Below are positions 38,382 through 50,921 of a DNA stretch of 64,000 nt, in pieces. A program made the translations under genes and the position numbers. Under the pieces are notes generated by a model. It did not search any database, had not been told where the DNA came from, and worked only from the letters and a program-made list of their open reading frames with translations. The first letter of the stretch is position 1. Every line of letters begins with the position of its first letter. The stretch lies in contig NZ_PEBI01000005.1 of the NCBI RefSeq assembly GCF_002802875.1, positions 124,001-188,000 of the forward strand. The letters run 5' to 3'. This DNA comes from Bifidobacterium primatium. Its GTDB lineage: Bacteria; Actinomycetota; Actinomycetes; Actinomycetales; Bifidobacteriaceae.

Positions 38382-40106
38382 TCAGAACAGGAAGTAGCGC
38401 TGCGTAAGCGGCAGCTCGTTCGCCGGATCGGAGTGAATGAGCTCGCCGTCGACCGTCACCTGGAACGTTTCGGGGTTCACCTGGATGTCGGCCAACGTGT
38501 CGTTGAACTTGAGGTCCTTCTTGCCCACCGTGCGGCAGCCGTGCACCGGCAGCACCTGACGCTGCAGACCGAGCTTGCCCTTGATGTCGTCGTCGATGGC
38601 GGCCTGCGACACGAACGTCGCGCAGGAGCTGCCCAACGCACGGCCCAGAGCGCCGAACATGTCGCGGTAGTACACGGGTTCCGGCGTCGGGATGGAGGCG
38701 TTGGCGTCGCCCATGCGCGAGTAGGCGATGGATCCGCCCTTGATGACCATTTCGGGCTTGGCGCCGAACATGGCCGGCTGCCACAGCACGAGGTCCGCCA
38801 TCTTGCCGACCTCCACGGAGCCGACGTAGTCGGCGATGCCGTGCGTGATGGCCGGGTTGATGGTGAACTTCGAGACGTAGCGCTTCACGCGGAAGTTGTC
38901 GTTGCGGTTGTTGTCGTGCTCGTCTTCGGGGAGCGGGCCGCGCTGCTTCTTCATCTTGTCGGCGGTCTGGATGGTGCGGGTGATGACCTCGCCCACGCGA
39001 CCCATGGCCTGCGAGTCGGAGCTCATCATGGAGATGATGCCCATGTCGTGCAGCACGTCCTCCGCGCCGATGGTCTCGGGGCGGATTCGCGAGTCGGCGA
39101 ACGAGATGTCCTCGGGAACGTTGCGGTCGAGATGATGGCAGACCATCATCATGTCGAGATGCTCGTCGACGGTGTTGCGCGTGAACGGCATGGTCGGGTT
39201 CGTGGAGCTCGGCAGCACGTTGGGGAAGCCGGCCGCACGGATGATGTCGGGCGCGTGGCCGCCGCCCGCGCCCTCGGTGTGGTACGTGTGGATGGCGCGT
39301 CCCTTGAACGCGGCGATGGTGTCTTCCACGCAGCCGCCCTCGTTCAGGGTGTCGGTGTGGATGGCCACCTGCACGTCCATTTCGTCGGCGACGCCGAGGC
39401 AGGTGTCGATGACAGCGGGCGTGGAACCCCAGTCCTCATGAATCTTCAGGCCCGCGGCGCCGGCGCGAATCTGCTCGCGCAGCGGTTCGGGCGAGGAGTC
39501 GTTGCCCTTGCCGAGGTACGCGATGTTGACGGGCAACGCTTCCGCCGCCTCGATCATGCGGGCCAGGTGGAAGGCGCCGGGGTTGCAGGTGGTTGCATTG
39601 GTGCCGTCGGCCGGGCCGGTGCCGCCGCCGACCATGGTGGTCACGCCGCCGGCGAGCGCGGTGCGCACCTGCTGCGGCGAGATGAAGTGGATGTGGGTGT
39701 CGAGTCCGCCGGCCGTTACAATCATGCCTTCGCCGGCGAGCGCCTCGGTGCCGGAGCCGACGGCCAGGCCGGGCGTGACGCCGTCCATGGTCTGCGGATT
39801 GCCGGCCTTGCCGATGGCCGAAATCTTGCCGTTCTTGATGCCGATGTCGGCCTTGTAGATGCCGGTGTAGTCGACGATGAGGGCGTTGGTGATGACGGTG
39901 TCGGGCGATTCGGCGTCGAGCTGCACGGAGCTTTGGCCCATGCCGTCGCGGAATGATTTGCCGCCGCCGAACTTGAGTTCGTCGCCGTAGTTCGTGTAGT
40001 CCTTTTCGACTTCGATAATGAGGTCGGTGTCGCCGAGGCGTACGCGGTCGCCCGTCGTCGGGCCGAACATGCCGGCGTAGTCGCTGCGTGTAATCGTCTT
40101 GCTCAT
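38382..40106 (-). CDS. ureC: Urease alpha subunit
   Basis: 574-aa catalytic subunit hydrolysing urea to ammonia and carbamate at a dinuclear nickel centre. Visible ligands: the HxH pair in [13 protein letters not shown], the carbamylated Lys in [13 protein letters not shown], the mobile-flap His in [14 protein letters not shown] and Asp in [12 protein letters not shown]. Length is normal. It lies 121 nt downstream of the fused ureAB gene on the same strand; a 52-bp palindromic repeat occupies much of the gap. The RBS is AAGGAC. Confidence 0.97.
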
Positions 40107-40132
40107 GATTTCAAGTCCTTACCGTTGTTGTC

Positions 40133-40184
40133 GGCTCCCCTCCCCGAGGGGAGCTGTCGGCCGTCAGGCTGACTGAGGGGAGCC
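40133..40184. repeat. Double-hairpin repeat, copy 1 (ureAB-ureC gap)
   Basis: GGCTCCCCTC-ccc-GAGGGGAGC followed by CTGTCGGCCGTCAGGCTGAC and TGAGGGGAGCC. Same family as the copies at 58263, 59381 and 59511, with a diverged second stem. It lies within the urease transcript. Confidence 0.85.
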
Positions 40185-40227
40185 CACGGATGCGGGCGAG
40201 AGAACGGCGAAGCCGTCTCCACCCAAC

Positions 40228-40908
40228 TCACATCCCCAAAAATCCTTGTTCCTTGGCCTTGGCGAATGCGGCTTCGCGTACGGTCGGGTCGTCGAGCTTG
40301 CCGTCGACGAGGGCGCTGAAGCCGTGCACTTCGCGTGTGCCGGCGATGTCGATGAGCTGCACGCGATGCGATTCGCCCGGTTCGAAGCGCACGGCGGTGC
40401 CGGCGGGGATGTCGAGCCGCTTGCCGTAGGCGGCTTTGCGGTCGAACTTGAGGTATTTGTTGACTTCGAAGAAGTGGAAGTGCGAGCCGATCTGGATCGG
40501 ACGGTCGGCGGTGTTGACCACGTCGAGTTCGATGCTTTCACGGCCGGCGTTGATGGTGAGGTCGCCGTCGGCGAAGAAGTATTCGCCCGGCTTGAGCTTT
40601 TCGGTGGTTTCGATGGGGTTGTGCACGGAGACGAGCTTGGTGCCGTCGGGGAACGTGGCCTCGACCTCCACGACGTCGATCATCTCGGCCACGCCGTCCA
40701 TCACGTCTTCGGGCTTGAGGAGCGTGCGGCCGTACTGCATGAGTTCGGCGACGGTCGCGCCCTCGCGCGCGCGTTCCACGCATTCGGAGCTGATGAGCGC
40801 CACAGCCTCCGGATAGTTGAGCTTCACGCCGCGGTTTTTCCGTTCCTTGGCAAGCTCGCCCGCCTGATGCAGCAGCAGCTTGTCGATCTCCCTAGGAGTA
40901 AGTCTCAT
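40228..40908 (-). CDS. ureAB: Fused urease gamma/beta subunit
   Basis: 226-aa fusion. Residues 1-100 are the gamma subunit ([40 protein letters not shown]), and residues about 105-215 are the beta subunit ([56 protein letters not shown]). Such gamma-beta fusions occur in Helicobacter and in bifidobacteria. The ATG at 40908 opens the domain; an in-frame start 36 nt upstream adds no conserved residues. First structural gene on the minus strand. It is separated from urtE by the inserted defence island, so it needs its own promoter in 40909-41061. Confidence 0.95.
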
Positions 40909-41061
40909 CGGACCCCCATCGCCGTTGGTTGAAATTACCAGCAACTTTAAGCCTTCAATAAAAACATCACGTTTCTATAGCTCATGCGCCACGCATATGC
41001 ACTTACCGTGCACTCACATCGCAGAATCTACACAGCGTTGCTTTCTGCAGAAACCTCTCAC

Positions 41062-42837
41062 TCAAAGGGAAGGCAATAATAATCGCAATGTTTTACCCAA
41101 TTCAGTCAACAATGAATTATTACCCCCTCCCTTGATAACTCTCGCTAAATACATCTGCTGAACCGCAGCTTGCTGGTTCGCTGGCACAGATTCCGTTTCA
41201 TCAAGATTAAACTCTTCCCGCGCTATTCGCTGCCAACATTCTTTTGCATCATGAGGATCAGAAGGCAAATGCTGATTGCAAATGCGAAGTAACAGGTAAT
41301 CCGGATTATCGCTACTTGGCAGAAAGGCAACATGATTACAAATCCATGCCAGAGTTTCTCTCATCGCCTGAAGGTCAAGCTCAGAGCTGTTATCATTCCC
41401 ACCGTTGCGCAATATATATTTTTTTGATATTCCAATTTTCCCCAGTTCCGATTCAAGTTCATTATCAGGGACATCTTCAGGCTTCCGCAATGTCGTCTCA
41501 GGTTTCATATCCCCATCCAAAAGCACAAAGGACGAAGAGTGCGTCTGAGCAGAGACTGGAATGACACGTGTTTTGATGGTTCCCGCTCCACCAGGTACTG
41601 GGACTACCTTGATGGATTGTTGGTAATCTTTACTAATTAATTTTGCTGCCGTATTAACCAACATAGCGGCTAACTCATCCTCTACGAGAAAAGTCCTCTC
41701 TGGATAATTCATCCCCAATCGATTGAAAGCTTCTAGCGGAGACGCTTCCTGCGAGAGAACTGCAACCTTATGACTAATCGGATCAATGTCCAGCATTTTA
41801 ATGGCCTCTGGCGGAAGCTCTTCAATAAGGGTGGGAGCATGAGTCGACATCACTACTTGATGACCATCAGTTTTACACTTTTTTGCCAAAAAACGCAGCA
41901 ATTCTCTCTGTGCACTCGGATGCAGCGACGTCTCCGGCTCATCTAATAAGATGAGACTCCTGCTTTGCGTAGTGCAAAGCTGATGGACCAGCATAATTGC
42001 CGCGAATTCACCACTTCCTGCGTATGCTTCTGAATAGTCGCGATTTTCTGTGACGAGTTTAGCTGTATAACCCTCCACTCCGAAGAAATCATGTTTCACT
42101 AAGCTTATTTTTCTATATTCTCTTCCGAGAATCTTAGATACCGATGTACGTTCCACAGCGTCAAGTTCAACAGGAGGTTCAAGGATGCGATTAGCTCCAT
42201 ATAAGCGCTGCTCAGTCTCTAAAGTTTCTAGAGCTTTCTTGACATGGGGCGATGCTCTACGAACATTACGCTTCTTATCCTTAAGCTTATTTCTCTGATT
42301 TCGCCAATTAAAGCTGGTATAGATATCATATGCAGGCAGTTCCTGACGAAAGTCAAGATATAATACATGCTTCTCGACCGGACGCCAACGAGTTTGGCTA
42401 CGGTACTGTGCGTCTTCTTTACGATAAGGAGGCATGGCCGCCATGCCATCCCTCTTACGTGGCTCGTCTGTTTCGAAGTAATCAGGATCATCTCGCCGCG
42501 CATTATTCACGCGCGTAAGCATCACCTCTGCATGCACATCCCGTCGAGGAATATAGCCATAGTAGTATCGTTGCTTACCGTTGTCTGCTTCCTCAATCGG
42601 ATCCAAAGCTGTTTCAAACCAGTATCGGCCAATGTTATACCCATTAGGCGCCCCTTGAAGTGCTCTAAGGATGGAGCTCTTATTCACACCATTAGGCCCT
42701 ACAATGGCCGTAATTGGATATGTGAAATTAATACGAGCACCAATCGATAAGTTTTTGAAGTGAGGAAAACATACGTACGATATAAAAGGAAAGAAATCTT
42801 CTTGATTCTTCCTCTTCAGAATGTCGAAATCATCCAT
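41062..42837 (-). CDS. OLD-like AAA ATPase with TOPRIM domain, defence candidate
   Basis: 591-aa protein. Residues about 30-370 are an ABC-type ATPase of the AAA_15/AAA_21 group: P-loop VGPNGVNKSS (residues 46-55), signature-like YAGSGEFAAIM, Walker B LILLDEPETSLHPSAQ (about 295), switch region MSTHAPTLIEE. Residues about 380-480 look like the TOPRIM nuclease domain of OLD proteins (FLVEDELAAM, then LLDGD near 441). The P-loop has Asn where Gly is usual. The gene overlaps the end of the upstream m5C methyltransferase by 8 bp, so the two are coupled. Base composition is clearly AT-richer than its surroundings, a sign of transfer. It may be a phage-defence effector; function inferred only. Confidence 0.85.
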   Translation of the reverse strand: MDDFDILKRKNQEDFFPFISYVCFPHFKNLSIGARINFTYPITAIVGPNGVNKSSILRALQGAPNGYNIGRYWFETALDPIEEADNGKQRYYYGYIPRRDVHAEVMLTRVNNARRDDPDYFETDEPRKRDGMAAMPPYRKEDAQYRSQTRWRPVEKHVLYLDFRQELPAYDIYTSFNWRNQRNKLKDKKRNVRRASPHVKKALETLETEQRLYGANRILEPPVELDAVERTSVSKILGREYRKISLVKHDFFGVEGYTAKLVTENRDYSEAYAGSGEFAAIMLVHQLCTTQSRSLILLDEPETSLHPSAQRELLRFLAKKCKTDGHQVVMSTHAPTLIEELPPEAIKMLDIDPISHKVAVLSQEASPLEAFNRLGMNYPERTFLVEDELAAMLVNTAAKLISKDYQQSIKVVPVPGGAGTIKTRVIPVSAQTHSSSFVLLDGDMKPETTLRKPEDVPDNELESELGKIGISKKYILRNGGNDNSSELDLQAMRETLAWICNHVAFLPSSDNPDYLLLRICNQHLPSDPHDAKECWQRIAREEFNLDETESVPANQQAAVQQMYLARVIKGGGNNSLLTELGKTLRLLLPSL

Positions 42838-43936
42838 GTCTTTCCGCTCTTTCTATATTGCGAAGGATACGCTGAGCAATCGCCTTCCCCAGGGGAATAG
42901 GAACAGCATTACCGATTTGTCTCGCTATAGAAACCTTGGACCCGACAAAACGGTGACTTTCCGGAAACCCTTGCAACAGCGACGCCTCATACAAAGTAAG
43001 CGCACGATCTTCATCAGGATGAAGATAACGTCCTTTTTCTGGTTTGAAAAACTCAGTCCTAATCGTCACCGATGGGGCATCCCAACGTAGGCGTCCCATG
43101 ACATCTGTAGCACCTTTGGTATAGCCCTTCCAGCAAGGTGCTAACAGTCTCTCCGGAATATCAAAACGATTACCCCCAACAGGTATGAAACTAAATCGCG
43201 CAAGAGATAAATCAGAATATCTCCGTGTTAAATGTAATTCATGCGGAGCAAAGGCACCGGGGTAGGACTTCCCATTAAACTCAAAAAACCTTCCAGAGGG
43301 CAACTCAATTTGCGTTACATGGCTTTGTACATGCGACAAAGCATCTCTCACTGTCAACGGTTTTCCATCATTCGTCGGAACAGGGAAACCGGGATTGTCG
43401 CAGTCTCGACGATAGCCAATGACAACAGCTCTCTTGCGCAGTTGAGGAACTCCGTAATCTGCAGCATTAAGAATCTTAACCGTTAACAAATAATCAGAGA
43501 GAATCCCGTTCTTCCCCGTGCTCGCCAACAAAGCCTCATACTGCTTAGATTTCAAAAATGCCGGCACATTTTCCATAACAAAATATCGAGGCTTCGTTCT
43601 ATTAATAGTTTCTGCATATTGTTGCCACAACATGTTGCGCTTATCTTCTTGATCGCGCTTGCCCAATGTTGAAAATCCTTGGCAGGGGGGGCCGCCAATA
43701 ACGACATCAATATTTTGTGGCACATCACTTTCGACCAGCCATTCCTGAATAGGCACAGCATGCACAATGCCTTTCCCAAAGGAGGCTTCATATGAAGCAG
43801 CAGCAGATTGATCCATCTCCACTGCAGCCACGACGCAATAGCGTTCCGAGGCCTGATGAAAACCTTCGGATAGTCCACCAGCCCCGCAAAAGAGGTCTAA
43901 AATACAAATTTTACCTTCCCGACCAGCCATATCCAT
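42830..43936 (-). CDS. DNA (cytosine-5) methyltransferase, coupled to OLD-like ATPase
   Basis: 368-aa m5C methyltransferase. Motif I ILDLFCGAGGLSEGFHQA, catalytic motif IV GGPPCQGFSTLG (Cys near residue 83), motif VI FVMENVPAFL, motif VIII QLRKRAVVIGYR, and motif X IARQIGNAVPIPLG are present, with a target-recognition region of about 100 residues between VIII and IX. Target sequence unknown. AT-rich like the ATPase it overlaps. No Shine-Dalgarno is seen before the ATG at 43936 or the ATG two codons on; TAATAT lies just upstream. Divergent from the second methyltransferase. No separate endonuclease gene accompanies it. Confidence 0.92.
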   Translation of the reverse strand: MDMAGREGKICILDLFCGAGGLSEGFHQASERYCVVAAVEMDQSAAASYEASFGKGIVHAVPIQEWLVESDVPQNIDVVIGGPPCQGFSTLGKRDQEDKRNMLWQQYAETINRTKPRYFVMENVPAFLKSKQYEALLASTGKNGILSDYLLTVKILNAADYGVPQLRKRAVVIGYRRDCDNPGFPVPTNDGKPLTVRDALSHVQSHVTQIELPSGRFFEFNGKSYPGAFAPHELHLTRRYSDLSLARFSFIPVGGNRFDIPERLLAPCWKGYTKGATDVMGRLRWDAPSVTIRTEFFKPEKGRYLHPDEDRALTLYEASLLQGFPESHRFVGSKVSIARQIGNAVPIPLGKAIAQRILRNIERAERHG

Positions 43937-44035
43937 TTATATTACGTTACAATTTCTCGTCACTTCGACCAATAGACGAACAGCGTTCTTATTTTCACAA
44001 TAAGATTTCCACTTTAGATTCATAGAGGGAGTTTT

Positions 44036-44051
44036 TGTCATCATAATGACA
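44036..44051. promoter_or_regulatory. Candidate operator of the HTH-methyltransferase
   Basis: TGTCAT-cata-ATGACA, a perfect 6-bp inverted repeat, abutting a TATATT hexamer (44052-44057) that ends 7 nt before the methyltransferase ATG. The layout fits autorepression by the enzyme's own N-terminal HTH, as described for M.EcoRII and M.SsoII. It also lies in the divergent promoter region with the first methyltransferase. Confidence 0.6.
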
Positions 44052-44064
44052 TATATTCTTCCCT

Positions 44065-45393
44065 ATGAGTAGCCTGATTCCCGAAAACGCCATTGATGAT
44101 GCCGACGAGCTTATCTCCAAGTTGCGCGAGAGTATGACCCGACGCCAGCTGGCCGAGTCGCTCGGCCTGTCCACATCCACCGTGGAGCGCTGGGAGTCGG
44201 GCAAGGTCCAGTGCAAGCCCGCCTACGTCCCCGCGTTGCAGGAGCTGTACTACGGCACCACGCACGAGACCGGCACGGACTTCCGGACCATCGATCTGTT
44301 TGCCGGCATCGGCGGCATCCGCCGCGGCTTCGCGACCGCCGGCGGCCACGCCGTGTTCTCGTCCGAGTGGAACGAGTTCTCCACGCGCACCTACCGCACC
44401 AACTACGGGTTCGCCGAGACCATGGCCGGCGACATCACACAGGTGGACGCGAACGACATCCCGGACTGTGACGTGGTGCTCGCTGGCTTCCCGTGCCAGC
44501 CGTTCAGTCTGGCCGGCGTCTCGAAGAAGCGCAGCCTCGGACGGGAGACCGGCTTCCGCGACAAGACGCAGGGCACCCTGTTCTTCGACGTGGCGCGCAT
44601 CATCGCGGCCAAGCGTCCCGCCGCGTTCCTCCTGGAGAACGTGAAGAACCTCACCAGCCATGACCGTGGTCGCACGTTCAAGGTCATCCTCGACGCACTG
44701 CAGAACGAGCTCGGCTACGAGGTGCACTGGAAGGTCGTCGACGGCCAGCACTTCGTGCCCCAGCACAGGGAGCGCATCTACATCGTCGGCTTCCGCTCTA
44801 GGACCGACTTCACATGGGACGATCTCAAGTTCCCGGACCATCAGCCGGTGCTCGCCGACATCCTCCACAAAACCGACGGCACCGAGCCCTATCTGCCGTG
44901 GGACGGCGACAAGTACTTCGACTTCGAGCACAAGAAGGTGCAGGACAAGTACACGCTCACCCCGCGTCTGTGGCAGTACCTTCAGGACTACAGGAAGAAG
45001 CACGAGGCTCTGGGCCACGGGTTCGGCTACGGGCTCGTCACCCCGGACATGGTGTCGCGCACCCTGTCCGCCCGCTACCACAAGGATGGCAGCGAGATTC
45101 TTATCTCCCAAGGCGACGAGCGCCCCCGCCGTCTGACGCCGCGCGAGTGCGCCCGTCTCATGGGCTACCCGGACGACTTCCGCATCCCCGTTTCGGACAC
45201 GCAGGCCTACCGCCAGTTCGGCAACAGCGTGGTCGTGCCCGCCATCGCCGAGGTCGCGCGCATCATGCGCCCCCACATCCTCAAGGTCATGGCAGAGGGC
45301 GACCAAGGACTGATTCTGGACGATGCGGAAAGATCCGTGGACGAAATCCAGAAGGCCCGGGAGCTTGCCGTCGCCGGAGCCAGCGAGAACTAA
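44065..45393 (+). CDS. Type II DNA (cytosine-5) methyltransferase with N-terminal HTH
   Basis: 442-aa enzyme of the Dcm/EcoRII type. Residues about 20-55 form a Cro/XRE-like helix-turn-helix ([20 protein letters not shown]). The methyltransferase follows: motif [16 protein letters not shown] (about 74), motif [14 protein letters not shown] (Cys near 146), motif [11 protein letters not shown], motif [17 protein letters not shown], and motif X FGNSVVVP. It should protect the host against the endonuclease encoded 58 nt downstream; target probably CCWGG- or CCSGG-like, inferred from the endonuclease family. The transcript looks leaderless (TATATT, 7 nt to ATG). GC-rich, unlike its AT-rich divergent neighbour. 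Confidence 0.94.
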
Positions 45394-45398
45394 CCCTA

Positions 45399-45423
45399 AA
45401 TGGCCGGTGTCGAGCCGGCCATT
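45399..45423 (+). terminator. Hairpin between methyltransferase and endonuclease genes
   Basis: Perfect stem AATGGCCGG / CCGGCCATT with a 7-nt loop, 5 nt after the methyltransferase stop. It could end or weaken transcription so that the endonuclease depends on its own promoter just downstream (TATCGT, 45440-45445, 6 nt before the ATG). Confidence 0.7.
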
Positions 45424-45451
45424 GTCTGTTGTTCGTGGGTATCGTGGTTGC

Positions 45452-46870
45452 ATGTGCGATACCCACGTCAATGAAGCCCGCCAATGGTACGACACGGCCG
45501 ACATCAGCCAGGTCAACGAACTGCTCGCCAACGCCGGTGCAAGCAGCATCTGGGTCAAAAGACTCGTCGCGAACAACAACTCCAAGCAGCAGATATGGCT
45601 GGCCAATGATCCATCGGATCTATCCTTCTTCCCGCTGGGGAAGCCGTCATATACTCCGGCAAAATCGCAGAAGAAAAAGGCCGGCAACCCGGTCATCCAG
45701 ATTCCTGTGACGTGGCAATGGGTCACGCCGAATGGTCGGTTTGATGCCCCCGACGCGAAGCTCTGCTACTACCCGCAATATCCCGAGGTTCGTTTTTCCG
45801 GGTTTCTACGCGGCTGCAAGGAGGCCCCGTCCGAGCTGCTGAGTGAAACGAAACGCGGCCATGAAGTAAACCGCTGCCTGTTCCTAGGCCCGGTGAAGAA
45901 TGCTTCCGGCGAAGTCGTTCGGATAGTGGCACTTGTGGTCGGGGCCGAATCCCCGGCGGCGCGGTACGTGCTCGGCATGGAGACCTTCGAGGCGGGGCAC
46001 TTATGCCCGATCGTCTACCAGTCACAGCGTCAGCAGGACGAGTTCTCCACTCTCGAACGGGCCTTGGAGAACATCGTCGGCCGCAAAATCATTCCGTGGC
46101 GGCTTAACAATGACGGCACCATCGTCCAACCGTACGCTGCCCCCAATGCCCCCGGTCTCACGCTGGAGGCGGAGCTGGGCGTGGGGGAGAACGCCATTCC
46201 CGGACCGGACTTCGACATCTGGGAGCTTAAGGCCATCAAGCAGAAGTCTTTGGAACGCCGATACAACCACAAGGTCACGCTCTTCACCCCGCAGCCCGAC
46301 CGCCCCGAAACAGGACGCCTGTCCACGGTCGACTTCGTACTCAAGTACGGGCATGTACACACCACTGACGAGGACGGCAACCCGACCAGTTACTATTTCA
46401 CCTCCGGCGACATCCAGCGCGAAGGCGAGGACAAGCCGGGCGCGAAGCTCGAACTCGTTCTGGAAGGCTTCACCGACGCTAGGCACTTCGACCCCAACGG
46501 CATGATTGCCCTCTACGAGAAGGGCACGAGAAACCTCGCCGCCGGATGGTCGTACCTGAAGCTGCTCGGACACTGGCAGCGCAAGCACAACCGCGCCGCA
46601 TACGTGCCTTACCTGAGCGAGAAGAACGACGGCGTCGCCACGGTCGAGTTCGGTCCGCTCATCACCCTCGGCATCTCCACCAGCTTCGGCCTGTTCCTCC
46701 AGGCGTTCAAGGACGGCAAGGCAGTCTACGACCCTGGCGACAAGGCAACCCTCGTGAACGGCAAATGGAAGCCGAAAGCCCGCAGCCAGTTCCGCATCAA
46801 CCTCAACGACATCGCCGCCATCTACGGAGAAGTACGAGAAGTCGATATGCGAAATCATAAAACATACTAA
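45452..46870 (+). CDS. MvaI/BcnI-like type II restriction endonuclease
   Basis: 472-aa protein. The region LGVGENAIPGPDFDIWELKA (about residues 242-261) holds a PD-(D/E)xK-type catalytic motif (Asp, then Glu-x-Lys) in the context I associate with MvaI/BcnI enzymes, which cut CCWGG or CCSGG. It is longer than MvaI/BcnI themselves (about 240-250 aa); the N-terminal 220 residues form an extra domain I do not recognise. The ATG at 45452 (MCDTHVNEARQWYDTADISQ) has no Shine-Dalgarno but a TATCGT hexamer 6 nt before it. It follows its methyltransferase on the same strand. Family assignment is moderate, restriction role likely. Confidence 0.82.
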   Translation: MCDTHVNEARQWYDTADISQVNELLANAGASSIWVKRLVANNNSKQQIWLANDPSDLSFFPLGKPSYTPAKSQKKKAGNPVIQIPVTWQWVTPNGRFDAPDAKLCYYPQYPEVRFSGFLRGCKEAPSELLSETKRGHEVNRCLFLGPVKNASGEVVRIVALVVGAESPAARYVLGMETFEAGHLCPIVYQSQRQQDEFSTLERALENIVGRKIIPWRLNNDGTIVQPYAAPNAPGLTLEAELGVGENAIPGPDFDIWELKAIKQKSLERRYNHKVTLFTPQPDRPETGRLSTVDFVLKYGHVHTTDEDGNPTSYYFTSGDIQREGEDKPGAKLELVLEGFTDARHFDPNGMIALYEKGTRNLAAGWSYLKLLGHWQRKHNRAAYVPYLSEKNDGVATVEFGPLITLGISTSFGLFLQAFKDGKAVYDPGDKATLVNGKWKPKARSQFRINLNDIAAIYGEVREVDMRNHKTY

Positions 46871-47029
46871 TGCTAAAGGCGATGTCATGGAAGCAGAACA
46901 AAAAAAGACAGACCGCACCAAGCTGATACCCAGAAATACGGATGCTTTTTTCTGGCCTTTCGCACGACAAGCCTCTCTACGTCAGCATCCTTAACCATCA
47001 CACTTTTCCAACACAGCTTCGGTGCCTCT

Positions 47030-48334
47030 CTACTCCCCAACGCAGAACGCCGCATACAGCGGCACGCTGCGGACGCCGTTGTCGACCCCGAAATTCTTGG
47101 TCGAAAGACGCAGCGCCTCATCAGGTTCATACTTGCCTCGGTACACCGACAGGCTGCGCGATCTGGTGTTATCGGACGACTTCACCTCCACCGGCACACC
47201 GGCGGCGCTGTCGTTCATCTGCATGACGAAATCCACCTCGGCGGTGGCGCCGCTGGTCCAATACCGCAACGGAACACCATTGGCGCACATGCTCTGCGCA
47301 ACATAGTTTTCCACGACACCGCCCAAGTCGACCCGTCGGCGGCGCTCCACATCCATCACCATGTCCTGACGCAATTCCGAACGGGCCGACAGCAAGCCGG
47401 TGTCTCCCATGTAGATTTTGAATGCCGCCGCATCCTCGTGCATGGCAAGCGGAAGCTGCCCACTGGAAACACGCACGCATCGCTCGACCAAACCGGCAGA
47501 CAACAACCACGAAATCGCCGGAGCATATACCGACGCCCTTCCACCGGAACGCACAAGTTTGTACTGGAATTTATGATTTTCCTTTGCCAATTGCGCCGGA
47601 ATACTGTTCCAGGTATCCCGTATGCGAGCGGTTTCCACCGGTGATGCATATTTGGCCATGTCGGCTGAGTACAAATCCAAAATATCCATCTGTAAAGCTC
47701 GGACCGCATCAAAACTGCCGCTACGGGCATATTCGGAAACGGCCTCAGGCATGCCGCCCACCAGAAGATATTGCCAAAATCGAGACATCATCTCGTCGTG
47801 CAGATAAAACGACTCACCGCTATGATAGCTTTCCCGAATCTCCGCGACCAACGCCCCTTCTCCGAGAGCATCCAAAAACTCGGCAAAATTCATCGGCCTT
47901 AAGGTCAGTGTCTGCACTTTCCCAACCGGGGCAGTAAATCCTTGCTGATTAACAGCGACCCCCAGCAGGCTTCCAGCAGCGACCACAGCAAGCTGCGGCA
48001 TATCCTCCTGAAAATACTTCAAAGACGCCAACGCACGGTTGGAAGCCTGAATCTCATCCAAGAACAGCAGCGTATGCTCCGGGGCGATACGCATGCCGGA
48101 AATCTGCGACAGTCGACGAATCAACGTCCTGGGCTCAAGATCCTGTTCAAAAGCCTGACGAGCACGACCATCCCTCTCCAAGTCAAAGCGCACATAATCA
48201 TTCGCAAATTCCGTCTTTGCGAACTCATTCAACAAGTAGGTCTTTCCTGTCTGACGAGCGCCATATACAAGCAGCGGCTTGTGGCTGGGAGCATTCTTCC
48301 ATTCGGCAAGACGCTTCATCATATTCCTATGCAT
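47030..48334 (-). CDS. AAA_14/DUF4143 ATPase
   Basis: 434-aa protein. P-loop VYGARQTGKTYLLNEFA (residues 23-39), Walker B TLLFLDEIQA, sensor VVAAGSLLGV, then the DUF4143 domain with a PD-(D/E)xK-like core (SGATAEVDFVMQMNDSAAGV then PVEVKSS, about 363-391). Such proteins are widespread, often in accessory regions, and their biological role is unsettled. Convergent with the endonuclease gene and inside the island interrupting the urea locus. The start may be the ATG at 48334 or one of two adjacent ATGs five codons in, which have AGGA upstream. Confidence 0.88.
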   Translation of the reverse strand: MHRNMMKRLAEWKNAPSHKPLLVYGARQTGKTYLLNEFAKTEFANDYVRFDLERDGRARQAFEQDLEPRTLIRRLSQISGMRIAPEHTLLFLDEIQASNRALASLKYFQEDMPQLAVVAAGSLLGVAVNQQGFTAPVGKVQTLTLRPMNFAEFLDALGEGALVAEIRESYHSGESFYLHDEMMSRFWQYLLVGGMPEAVSEYARSGSFDAVRALQMDILDLYSADMAKYASPVETARIRDTWNSIPAQLAKENHKFQYKLVRSGGRASVYAPAISWLLSAGLVERCVRVSSGQLPLAMHEDAAAFKIYMGDTGLLSARSELRQDMVMDVERRRRVDLGGVVENYVAQSMCANGVPLRYWTSGATAEVDFVMQMNDSAAGVPVEVKSSDNTRSRSLSVYRGKYEPDEALRLSTKNFGVDNGVRSVPLYAAFCVGE

Positions 48335-49021
48335 AGGTCATCAGCCCCTATCGCACCCATCGTCGCCAATACGCTTATATCTGAGTTATCTTCGGAAAAA
48401 TGTCGCAAATGACATTTTTTGGTTGATAAAAATGTATTCTACTACTTTTTTTTGAAGATAACTTGCCGACACCGAAAAGTCACCGGAAAGGAAAACGACT
48501 CAGCAACGGTATGCGGCCGCCGCAAACGCCGACCGCGAACCCACCCTTTTATATCTTTTTATAAGTTTTATATCTTTTATAAGTTGGAAGACACAAAACC
48601 GGAGAAACGTTGATATTCCAACATTTTTGTCGCAACGGCACCAATCCCCGTTGCGACCCCTAAATGGACCCTTTAACTACCCTTTTCCTCAGATCACCGA
48701 GTTGCCTCAGCCAAGCGTCGGTAGATATCCGACGGCAGGTGACAGTTTCCGAAGCCTCGCACTCGGATGCCGGAGTCCGTGCGCTGATACACGATGCACA
48801 TGTCGGCGAGGATGCCCCGGAACCGGCGATGCTGAAAATGGCAGGACCGCGAAAACACCCTTATTGACGAATCGTCATAGACCCTACTGATGAATCATCG
48901 GCATTCCTATTGATGAATTTGCATGAATCCTACTGATGAAATTACATAAACCCTACTGATGAATTTGCAGAACAAAACTAACAAATTCCACAAAACCGAA
49001 CAACACATATGAACAACGCAG
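48335..49021. other. AT-rich, gene-free right end of the island
   Basis: About 690 nt without a supported gene. It contains the inverted repeat AAAAATGTC-gcaaat-GACATTTTT (48396-48419), an 18-19-bp direct repeat TTTTATATCTTTTATAAG (48547-48565 and 48566-48583), a stem GTCGCAACGG / CCGTTGCGAC (48629-48657), a CGTCGG-tagatat-CCGACG stem (48716-48734) and the five-unit tandem array at 48862-48976. Short ORFs lack RBS and domains. It looks like the decayed end of an integrated element. Confidence 0.6.
48862..48976. repeat. Five tandem degenerate 23-bp repeats
   Basis: Units start at 48862, 48885, 48908, 48931 and 48954, each exactly 23 bp with no spacer. The consensus of the conserved part is TAYTGATGAATNNNCA, and four units end in CCC or TCC. 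The exact spacing (about two helical turns) resembles plasmid iterons or an operator array. Not a CRISPR: there are no unique spacers. Confidence 0.85.
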
Positions 49022-49074
49022 AAAAAGGCGGGGCGGTCGCTGCCACGGACAGTTACAGCAACGGCCGTCCCGCC
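49022..49074 (-). terminator. Terminator of the urtABCDE operon
   Basis: GC-rich hairpin (GGCGGGGCGGTCGCTGC against GCAACGGCCGTCCCGCC, 49027-49074) followed on the minus strand by TTTTT (49026-49022), 166 nt after the urtE stop. It implies that urt transcription stops before the island and does not reach ureAB. Confidence 0.8.
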
Positions 49075-49239
49075 GGAACAAACCTTCCCCGACGGGCTTC
49101 GATGCCGGCGTCGAGGAAGGAGTATTGAGAGGCGCCGCACAAGATGCAGCGCATCACACGGGTCCGAGGGCATCATGCGGGACGAACAGACCGTATGAAC
49201 AGACCGTATGACACACGCATCCCGCAAGCCATGCAACGC

Positions 49240-49941
49240 CTACACGCGCATGGCTTCCTTTGCGGTCTCGACCTGGTCGGCGCCGCCCTTGCCGGAGGCG
49301 ATGAACCGACCGGATGCGAGCACATGGTACGTGTCGCAGCGTTCGACGGCGAACTGCACCTTCTGTTCGACCAGCACGACGCCGATGCCGCGGTCCTCGA
49401 CCATCGAACGGATCGAACGCTGGATGTCGGCCACGATGTTCGGCTGGATGCCTTCGGTCGGCTCGTCGAGAATCATGAGCTTCGGCCGCGTGATCAACGC
49501 CCTCGCGATCGAAAGCTGCTGCCGCTGGCCTCCGGACAGCAGACCGGCACGTCGACCGGCGAACTCCTTCAGCACGGGGAACGCCTCCACGGCCTCGTCA
49601 TAGCGGGCCTGCGCCTCGGAACCATAGCGGTCGGCGACCACGTGCAGGTTCTCGTCGACGGTCATGGTGCCGAACGACTGCTGTCCCTGCGGCACGAACG
49701 CCATGCCCGCGCGGATGCGCTGGTTCGGCGCCGCCTTGGTCACGTCCTTGCCGTCGAATTTCACCGTGCCGCCGGTGGTGGGCAGCAGGCCGAGAATCGC
49801 CTTGAGCAGCGAGGTCTTGCCGGCGCCGTTGTTGCCGATGATGCTGACCCATTTGCCTTCGGGCACGTCGAAGCTGATGTCGTTGACCACGGTCACCTTG
49901 CCGTAGCCGGTGCTCAGCCCATTCACTTCCAACATTGCCAT
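49240..49941 (-). CDS. urtE: Urea ABC transporter ATPase UrtE
   Basis: 233-aa ATPase of the branched-chain amino acid/urea transporter class (LivF-like). Walker A SIIGNNGAGKTSLLKA, signature AGLLSGGQRQQLSIARAL, Walker B KLMILDEPTEGIQPN, and the UrtE-typical FVPQGQQSFGTMTVDENLHV. Its start overlaps the urtD stop by 1 nt. Together with UrtD it drives the UrtBC channel. Confidence 0.95.
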   Translation of the reverse strand: MAMLEVNGLSTGYGKVTVVNDISFDVPEGKWVSIIGNNGAGKTSLLKAILGLLPTTGGTVKFDGKDVTKAAPNQRIRAGMAFVPQGQQSFGTMTVDENLHVVADRYGSEAQARYDEAVEAFPVLKEFAGRRAGLLSGGQRQQLSIARALITRPKLMILDEPTEGIQPNIVADIQRSIRSMVEDRGIGVVLVEQKVQFAVERCDTYHVLASGRFIASGKGGADQVETAKEAMRV

Positions 49942-50921
49942 TAGTTTTCGCCTCCGCCCAGGTAAATACTTACGACTTCGTCGTTATTCTGAATTTCTTC
50001 AACCGAACCCTCGGCGAGGATCTCGCCCTGGTTGAGCACGGTGACGGAGTCGGCGAACTTGCGCATGAATTCCATGTCGTGTTCGACGATGATGACCGTG
50101 CGGTTGCGGCTGCATCGCTTGAGCAGCTCGCCGGTCTGCTGCCTCTCCTCCGGCGTCATGCCGGCGACGGGTTCGTCGAGCAGCAGCAGATGGGCGTCCT
50201 GCACGAGCAGCATGCCGATCTCGAGCCATTGCTTCTTGCCGTGCGGCAGGATGCCGGCCGGCTTGTAGGCGTCGGCGGTCAGGCCGGTGACGTCCATCAT
50301 GTACTGGATGTTCTGCGAGACGCCCCTGACCGGTCGGAACAGGTCGCGCGTCTTCTTGCGGAAGCCTTCGGCCAGCTGCAGGTTCTCCAGCACCGACAGC
50401 TCCTCCACGACCGACGCGGTCTGGAAGGTGCGTCCGACGCCGAGTTTGACGATGTCGTTGGGCTTCCTGCCGAGCAGCTGCTCGCCGCGGAATTTGGCGG
50501 AGCCGGTCGCCGGCGTCAGGCCGGTGATCGCGTCGATGATGGTGGTCTTGCCGGCGCCGTTCGGGCCGATGAGGAATCGCAGATCGCCATGCTGCACCGT
50601 AAGGTTCAAGTCCTTGACGGCGACGAATCCGTCGAATTCCACGTGCAGGCCCTGGATTTCGAGATAGTCGCTCCACTGGCCGCCGCGGTCGTCGAGCACG
50701 GAGAGCTCGTCCTTCAGGTCCTGCATGCGCTTGCGTTCGGAGACGATCTCGTCCTTCATGCGGCTGACTTCGTCTCGCATCTGCCGGGCCTCGTCGCGCA
50801 GCTGCTGCGCCTCGGCGCGAAGCTGCGCGGCATCGGAAATATCGTTCTTTTCGGCCGTGTTCTTTTCGGCCGTGTTCTTTTCGGTCACGTCGCTCACCTC
50901 TTTCCTGCTGGTCCCGCTCAT
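49941..50921 (-). CDS. urtD: Urea ABC transporter ATPase UrtD with coiled-coil extension
   Basis: 326-aa LivG-like ATPase: Walker A FLIGPNGAGKTTIIDAITGL, signature region ILPHGKKQWLEIGMLLVQDA, Walker B HLLLLDEPVAGMTPEE. The core begins near residue 84 (SDYLEIQGLHVEFDGF). The 83 residues before it are unusual: three short repeats (EKNTAEKNTAEKND) from a 15-bp tandem repeat in the DNA, then an R/E-rich coiled coil (QLRAEAQQLRDEARQMRDEV and on to VLDD). The start overlaps the urtC stop (ATGA). Role of the extension unknown. Confidence 0.95.
   Translation of the reverse strand: MSGTSRKEVSDVTEKNTAEKNTAEKNDISDAAQLRAEAQQLRDEARQMRDEVSRMKDEIVSERKRMQDLKDELSVLDDRGGQWSDYLEIQGLHVEFDGFVAVKDLNLTVQHGDLRFLIGPNGAGKTTIIDAITGLTPATGSAKFRGEQLLGRKPNDIVKLGVGRTFQTASVVEELSVLENLQLAEGFRKKTRDLFRPVRGVSQNIQYMMDVTGLTADAYKPAGILPHGKKQWLEIGMLLVQDAHLLLLDEPVAGMTPEERQQTGELLKRCSRNRTVIIVEHDMEFMRKFADSVTVLNQGEILAEGSVEEIQNNDEVVSIYLGGGEN
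50844..50888. repeat. 15-bp tandem repeat, three units, inside urtD
   Basis: GTTCTTTTCGGCCGT at 50844-50858 and 50859-50873, then a third unit 50874-50888 with three changes at its end. It keeps the frame and encodes repeats of EKNTA. Unit number may vary between strains. Confidence 0.85.

Follow-up and report, generated by a model that had tools for sequence, protein, structure and literature searches.

Related restriction-modification systems

C5 DNA methyltransferases that bear a helix-turn-helix (HTH) are established repressors of their own genes in the available text of two papers (PMC3978073, PMC3874152), the first of which cites M.EcoRII as such a repressor, and the precedent of M.EcoRII and M.SsoII named in the first-pass annotation of this locus is found there. 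For M.SsoII, the available text of PMC6100179 and PMC3695355 describes N-terminal domains that hold the site and methyltransferase domains that lie on the flanking DNA. BlmNCII of Bifidobacterium longum NCIMB 8809 is a type II system with a C5 methyltransferase and a predicted CCWGG target; the available text of the same paper reports protection of DNA against EcoRII by a bifidobacterial system of predicted CCWGG specificity, and describes no regulation for BlmNCII (PMC4618763). Systems of the PvuII kind, with a C protein, combine HTH autoregulation with leaderless transcripts and with hairpins near the start of the endonuclease gene, whose disruption was without effect according to the available text (PMC2997769).

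The locus analysed here lies in a Bifidobacteriaceae genome of 2.70 Mb (G000, contig C5) and carries an EcoRII-like restriction-modification cassette; the window, that is, the whole stretch of DNA that was analysed, is 64,000 nucleotides long. As in the M.EcoRII / M.SsoII kind, its methyltransferase (M) has an N-terminal HTH fused to a C5 methylase domain and, by comparison of homologues, a dyad operator overlapping its own promoter. The best explanation overall is that M most likely represses its own gene through a 37-bp two-tier dyad, and the sequence comparisons given below lead us to a probability of about 0.72 for this reading. Self-repression of this kind is known already. Neither the outer dyad nor a start-codon hairpin comparable to the one at the endonuclease gene (R) was found in the literature searched, which extended neither to most subscription papers nor to the original M.EcoRII papers.

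M is 48% identical to M.EcoRII, an HTH-bearing C5 methyltransferase whose gene also has GGGW-N29-WCCC just upstream. In contrast to the window, the EcoRII nuclease lies on the opposite strand in plasmid pN3, M.EcoRII has a leader between the bracket and the start codon, and its inner dyad has a different sequence. The N-terminal HTH is shared with SsoII and Ecl18kI, self-repression being known for the M.SsoII kind, and the inner core shares its register with the M.SsoII site AGGACAAATTGTCCT, whose inner site is GGACA-N3-TGTCC (available text of PMC3978073, PMC6100179, PMC3695355). These two systems differ in their CCNGG target, in their divergent M and R genes and in their flanks, which the available text describes as A/T tracts with non-specific contacts. 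BlmNCII resembles the present cassette by its description. Unlike the PvuII kind, the cassette has no separate C gene and the predicted regulator is the methyltransferase itself; no small C reading frame is present between M and R in the list of open reading frames, and the HTH is part of M.

Genomic features of the cassette

44027..46870, + strand: whole restriction-modification cassette, bordered by blastn similarity
44065..45393, + strand: M, C5 DNA methyltransferase of 442 residues (HTH 21-64, methylase domain 73-399)
45399..45423, + strand: intergenic hairpin, terminator-like, not above chance for the region
45452..46870, + strand: R, MvaI/BcnI-family endonuclease of 472 residues (catalytic part 205-458, N-terminal region of about 200 residues)

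The cassette contained M followed by R on the same strand. The N-terminal HTH claimed in the first-pass annotation was recovered as an HTH_31 match (29.6 bits, cut-off 27) ahead of the C5 methylase domain. R matched PF15515 with 98.6 bits (cut-off 25), so that the catalytic domain of the MvaI/BcnI family is present, and its predicted structure (mean pLDDT 83.2) gave Foldseek values of 6.8e-12 to MvaI and 1.9e-9 to BcnI. R differs from these enzymes in its roughly 200 extra N-terminal residues. MvaI and BcnI are partnered by N4C methyltransferases. From the M.EcoRII/Dcm and MvaI relatives we infer CCWGG as the putative target of both M and R. The window contained 114 CCWGG against 144.8 expected and 122 CCSGG against 163.3 expected, and depletion of CCWGG was rejected as a sign of specificity, being no stronger than that of CCSGG.

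In the family of the window, 23 of the 189 genomes gave a match. In seven genomes (G040, G041, G054, G061, G075, G080, G086) blastn similarity to relatives in other contexts started exactly at 44027 and stopped at 46824-46871, in L090 it started at 44026, and in the remaining relatives it started further inside the cassette. As similarity begins at 44027, the shared cassette has the operator at its left border, and most of the M promoter must lie within the operator. In L089 (G038, same family) the M N-terminus and the operator are identical to those of Bifidobacterium callitrichos L006, on which the assignment of the window to Bifidobacteriaceae is based. Judged from these homologous loci, the cassette is compact and mobile.

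The whole M-R cassette, with the operator and the dyad at the start of R, was seen on contigs classed viral (L133, L134 and L135; 14-37 kb), and carriage by prophages is possible. L090 and L007 have an M with the operator and a different or absent R downstream, which means that M and its operator can part from R. C-terminal R fragments of 72-114 residues and 70-82% identity were seen in L127 and L129 (genome G001) and in L128 (G066), and in G001 no M match above the cut-off was found; the three fragments are, to all appearances, remains of lost cassettes.

Operator of the methyltransferase gene

44027..44063, no strand: two-tier operator GGGA-N14-A-N14-TCCC, 37 bp, from homologue comparison
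44027..44030, no strand: left outer arm GGGA, from homologue comparison
44060..44063, no strand: right outer arm TCCC, more strongly conserved than any other part (C at +17 in 43/44 non-redundant windows)
44039..44051, no strand: inner core CATCAT-A-ATGACA, from family comparison and arm covariation at offsets 4-6
44036..44051, no strand: palindrome TGTCAT-N4-ATGACA of the first-pass annotation, exact, not conserved

The 37-bp dyad is centred at 44045, has the general form GGGW-N14-centre-N14-WCCC and fills the M promoter nearly up to the ATG. A total of 185 homologous loci were fetched for comparison. The named-genome set consisted of the best 80 of at least 558 relatives together with the locus of the window (81 loci). 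GGGA-N29-TCCC was exact in 25 of the 81, while each other spacing from 20 to 39 occurred in at most 5; as a control, the remainder of the 81 loci (542,488 bases) gave 8 matches. A position matrix trained on the 81 loci placed a site above threshold in 73 of them. In 44 non-redundant windows, obtained by collapsing near-identical ones and including loci without a real site (e.g. L070, L071, L085), the inner arms covaried at offsets 4, 5 and 6 (column shuffling: p 0.001, 0 of 2000, and p 0.001, respectively). The outer arms were too constant for this test. The left outer arm read GGG in only 24 of 44 non-redundant sites. The 17 close homologues (L001 and L086-L101; full-length, 75-100% identity) had GGGW-N29-TCCC in 16 cases, the lone exception being L100 with TTCC for TCCC. 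The bifidobacterial inner core was CATCAT-W-ATGATG or a variant of it, and was perfect in L087, L088 and L094.

The viral contigs, of which the best 80 of 89 relatives were taken, served as a test set that was not used for finding the pattern. GGGW-N29-WCCC was found in 16 of 35 HTH-bearing loci and in 0 of 45 HTH-less loci, while the other spacings from 20 to 39 gave 2 matches in HTH-bearing and 15 in HTH-less loci. With a matrix built from 64 genome windows, a score of at least 10 was reached in 17 of 34 HTH-bearing against 1 of 44 HTH-less scored loci (Mann-Whitney p 1e-8; medians 9.8 and -10.3; L161 and L169 unscored), the HTH-less loci having been searched over a longer region. The other 17 of the 34 HTH-bearing loci scored below 10, some of them far lower. 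The lone HTH-less match (L141) has nearly the site of the HTH-bearing L136. Upstream of M.EcoRII, GGGT-N29-ACCC ends 12 nt before the start codon. The bracket with its exact spacing is common to bifidobacteria, Paraburkholderia, viral contigs and M.EcoRII. The proposal that M regulates itself through its HTH gains from this, as the operator accompanies HTH-bearing and not HTH-less methyltransferases and M.EcoRII has the same bracket.

Two further uses of the dyad were considered. A scan of the genome for a second M operator gave no other site at 0-1 mismatches and one at 2 mismatches, and an M regulon was rejected. The outer arms were also rejected as decoy CCWGG sites, since just two arms (in L064 and L099) among the 88 that make up the non-redundant set contain a full CCWGG, about the chance value given CC (1 in 32); counting all rows, L033 has one as well.

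Promoter of the methyltransferase gene and proposed readers of the operator

44052..44057, + strand: -10 box TATATT of M, TAnnnT at the same offset in 16/16 homologues listed

The TATATT element reported in the first pass is present and lies 7 nt before the ATG of M. TAnnnT was found at +7..+12 from the dyad centre in all 16 close homologues listed (L093, a copy of L092, is unlisted), with the ATG at +19 to +21. No Shine-Dalgarno sequence was found before the ATG in the window, and none between the -10 box and the ATG in the close homologues. The M transcript is predicted to be leaderless, which fits the 15% of leaderless start sites given for Bifidobacterium pseudolongum in the available text of PMC4782308. 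In many proteobacterial relatives the operator is centred on CATAAT, and a Shine-Dalgarno-like stretch follows the bracket, so that the promoter appears to be shifted relative to the operator.

The two tiers vary independently. Bifidobacteria alter the inner core and retain the outer arms, while a more distant methyltransferase clade (L104, L105, L193-L196) has inner AGGACA and outer GTGT/ACAC at the same outer position. In L104 and L105 a longer outer repeat, TTATGTGTT/AACACATAA, was seen. On a tree of methyltransferase domains, outer CCC (89 rows) and outer ACAC (6 rows) were separated by one change (SH-aLRT 99), with 31 of 126 rows of neither type left uncounted. A blind dyad finder picked the wrong site in some loci, e.g. 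L006 and L089, both of which have the bracket, so that its 32 of 133 loci of type 'other' is an inflated count. The simplest reading, and the most likely one on these comparisons, is that an HTH pair sits on the inner core and the methyltransferase domain on the outer arms. The corresponding contact of M.SsoII with flanking DNA is treated as non-specific in the available text of published work; the outer dyad, with its exact spacing from bifidobacteria to M.EcoRII, suggests that the contact is sequence-specific in a large clade.

Residue 41 of the HTH helix was compared with inner CC in 72 non-redundant rows (near-identical rows collapsed; doubtful sites L035, L071 and L109 included). R/K occurred with CC in 40 rows and without it in 3, while other residues occurred with CC in 4 and without it in 25. 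On the tree, tested without L035, L070, L080, L085 and identical domains, this gave 3 supported (at most 6) independent contrasts, which was not significant, and several columns of the methyltransferase domain outscored column 41. A recognition-helix code for the inner arm was dropped to a lead, its raw association being strong and not significant on the tree. L048, L053, L061 and L063 have the helix STxGRW or STLTRW for KTVRRW and an inner core around ATGCAA, L053 fitting least; this listing of helices and inner cores was made without L102 (no start found), L002-L005, L103, L108 and L110.

The alternatives to this arrangement differ in which bases are read and where transcription starts. The first-pass annotation had placed the operator in the 16-bp palindrome, and if that alone were read by an HTH dimer, the outer GGGA/TCCC would be incidental. 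The palindrome is indeed exact in the window and its left TGTCATCAT is retained in most close relatives, but its right arm ATGACA becomes ATGATA, ATGATG, ATGAGG or ATGGGG in most of them, while the 37-bp bracket is kept in all but one of the close homologues and beyond the family in another register (palindrome centre 44043.5, 1.5 bp off the conserved dyad). If up to 2 mismatches are allowed, chance alone would give 1.34 occurrences of the pattern per window. Of the Bifidobacteriaceae loci compared, the window and L091 alone have a perfect copy (L135 is a near copy of L091), and the copy in the window is perfect because its ATGACA departs from the family core. The palindrome stands as a sequence and was rejected as the operator on register and conservation, which leaves this alternative very unlikely. 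A cooperative tetramer, in which a second HTH dimer and not the methyltransferase domain would contact the outer arms, is an unlikely but more credible proposal, as in many proteobacterial sites outer GGGAC resembles inner GGACA, both pointing the same way and spaced by about one turn of the helix. It is opposed by the independence of the tiers, seen in bifidobacteria and in the clade that joins inner GGACA to outer GTGT/ACAC, and by outer half-sites that have no palindrome of their own. M might also be transcribed from TTCATA-17-CATAAT (44019-44047), the pick of a consensus scan (9 of 12), with a leader of about 11 nt; the proteobacterial CATAAT centre and Shine-Dalgarno-like stretch speak for it. 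We regard this as improbable, since CATAAT becomes CAGAAT in L006 and CATCCT in L007, 44019-44026 lies outside the conserved cassette, TAnnnT is retained in all homologues listed and M has no Shine-Dalgarno sequence.

Promoter and start-codon dyad of the endonuclease gene

45440..45445, + strand: -10 box TATCGT of R, TAnnnT at a like distance from the ATG in 13/18 bifidobacterial rows
45434..45467, + strand: inverted repeat CGTGGGTATCG (45434-45444) / CGATACCCACG (45457-45467), 11-bp arms, ATG in the loop, from folding and comparison

The TATCGT hexamer of R lies 6 nt before the ATG (45452), as the first-pass annotation stated. Thirteen of 18 bifidobacterial rows (near copies included) have TAnnnT at a distance of 12 or 13 nt upstream of the R ATG; in L095 and L096 the distance is 14 nt, and in L100-L102 the motif is not near the ATG. 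Together with the M promoter, these fixed offsets favour the leaderless transcripts proposed for both genes. R would have its own -10 box and no M operator. The intergenic hairpin that was said to separate the genes exists but is weak as a terminator: it has no long T-run, it is shared only with the closest relatives L086 and L087 and with L133, and the region has 5 terminator-like sites against 3.1 +/- 1.9 in shuffles. A terminator was rejected, the hairpin being neither above regional chance nor general.

The dyad around the R start codon scored 11, while 93 mechanical ORF starts of the window scored at most 8 (shuffle p 0.003). As RNA the stretch folded with -21.4 kcal/mol (z -4.38), while a transcript starting at the R ATG is without the left arm and folded worse than shuffles (z +1.6). 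Because the dyad flanks the start codon, a read-through mRNA would put the R AUG in the hairpin loop and a leaderless mRNA would not. The hairpin was found in 9 of the 15 bifidobacterial loci folded (z -1.9 to -10.3), was missing in the other 6 (L088, L098-L102) and was not found in the 7 proteobacterial loci folded. L134 is a further case, by eye. A left GTGGG pairs with codon CAC and a left ATGGG with CAT, with the exception of L086 (GCGGG, CAC), and the aspartate codon of the right arm is GAT in 8/8 hairpin loci listed (10 loci listed), against 20 GAC and 5 GAT in R of the window. In 9 rows, 82.6% of cells were paired, against 25.0-51.4% when slid, and 6 cells were changed on both sides, a number reached in 16 of 500 shuffles. 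For the same rows, shuffles gave no fewer pairs altered on both sides (2 observed) and no fewer additional types of pair (11 observed). In one group of relatives the dyad seems to be genuine.

Whether it acts as RNA is a closer matter. A DNA operator for an unknown regulator or for R itself is a contender that we place a little short of even odds: the dyad overlaps the R -10 box, a DNA dyad explains the symmetric changes equally well, and the antisense strand folds nearly as well. The sense z is lower than the antisense z in 8 of 9 hairpin loci and the sense strand has 9 G-U and 3 A-C non-Watson-Crick stem pairs (near copies L095/L096 both counted), points that favour RNA and are not decisive. 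Lack of any function, with chance and shared descent as the origin, is an unlikely reading. It agrees with the absence in 6 of 15 bifidobacterial relatives and with a count of pairs changed on both sides equal to the shuffled mean, but the score stands out among the ORF starts, GAT is kept against the codon usage of R, and L095/L096 have a different stem sequence in the same place (7-bp arms, shuffle p 0.11-0.13).

Proposed mechanism and its meaning

In the preferred reading, two M molecules would set their HTHs on the inner core around 44045, and the outer GGGW/WCCC arms would be read elsewhere in the protein, most likely by the methyltransferase domain. The bound pair would bar RNA polymerase from the -10 box at 44052-44057, from which M transcription would start at the ATG or within about a base of it. 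Synthesis of M would be unchecked just after entry into a new cell and throttled once M exceeded its unmethylated sites. Expression of R would depend on a separate leaderless promoter with its -10 box at 45440-45445, which lies beyond the M operator. On an mRNA that reads through from M into R, the 11-bp hairpin would hold the R start codon in its loop and may block R synthesis; this is the least certain step.

The full combination, in which the HTH reads the inner dyad, the methyltransferase domain reads a clade-specific outer dyad (GGGW/WCCC in EcoRII/Dcm-like enzymes, GTGT/ACAC in another clade) and a start-codon hairpin spares the leaderless R transcript, is put forward tentatively and on balance remains rather doubtful. 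If the two-reader operator were true, repression would report the amount of methyltransferase free of methylation sites, and the bifidobacterial start-codon hairpin would let R be translated from its own leaderless transcript and not from read-through. The split of the methyltransferase between methylation and repression becomes a testable question, and the R-start dyad would be a second possible way of delaying the nuclease. The comparison also yields exact promoter borders for cassettes of a type that impedes the genetic manipulation of bifidobacteria.

Genomic surroundings

Upstream of the cassette, an AAA ATPase gene (41062-42837, - strand), whose best PADLOC matches were HEC-04 and ATPase-Toprim, overlaps by 8 bases a second C5 methyltransferase gene (42830-43936, - strand). 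The G+C content of these two genes is 44-47%, while that of the window is 62%; they are a possible further defence pair. The island 38382-50921 is flanked by what we take, from the translations, to be a urease alpha-subunit-like gene and ABC transporter ATPase genes, and perhaps lies inside a urea-use region. The second methyltransferase gene has its second in-frame ATG at 43930, and a TAATAT ends 8 nt upstream of this codon (region 43930-43944, - strand); the gene could thus be leaderless if it started there.
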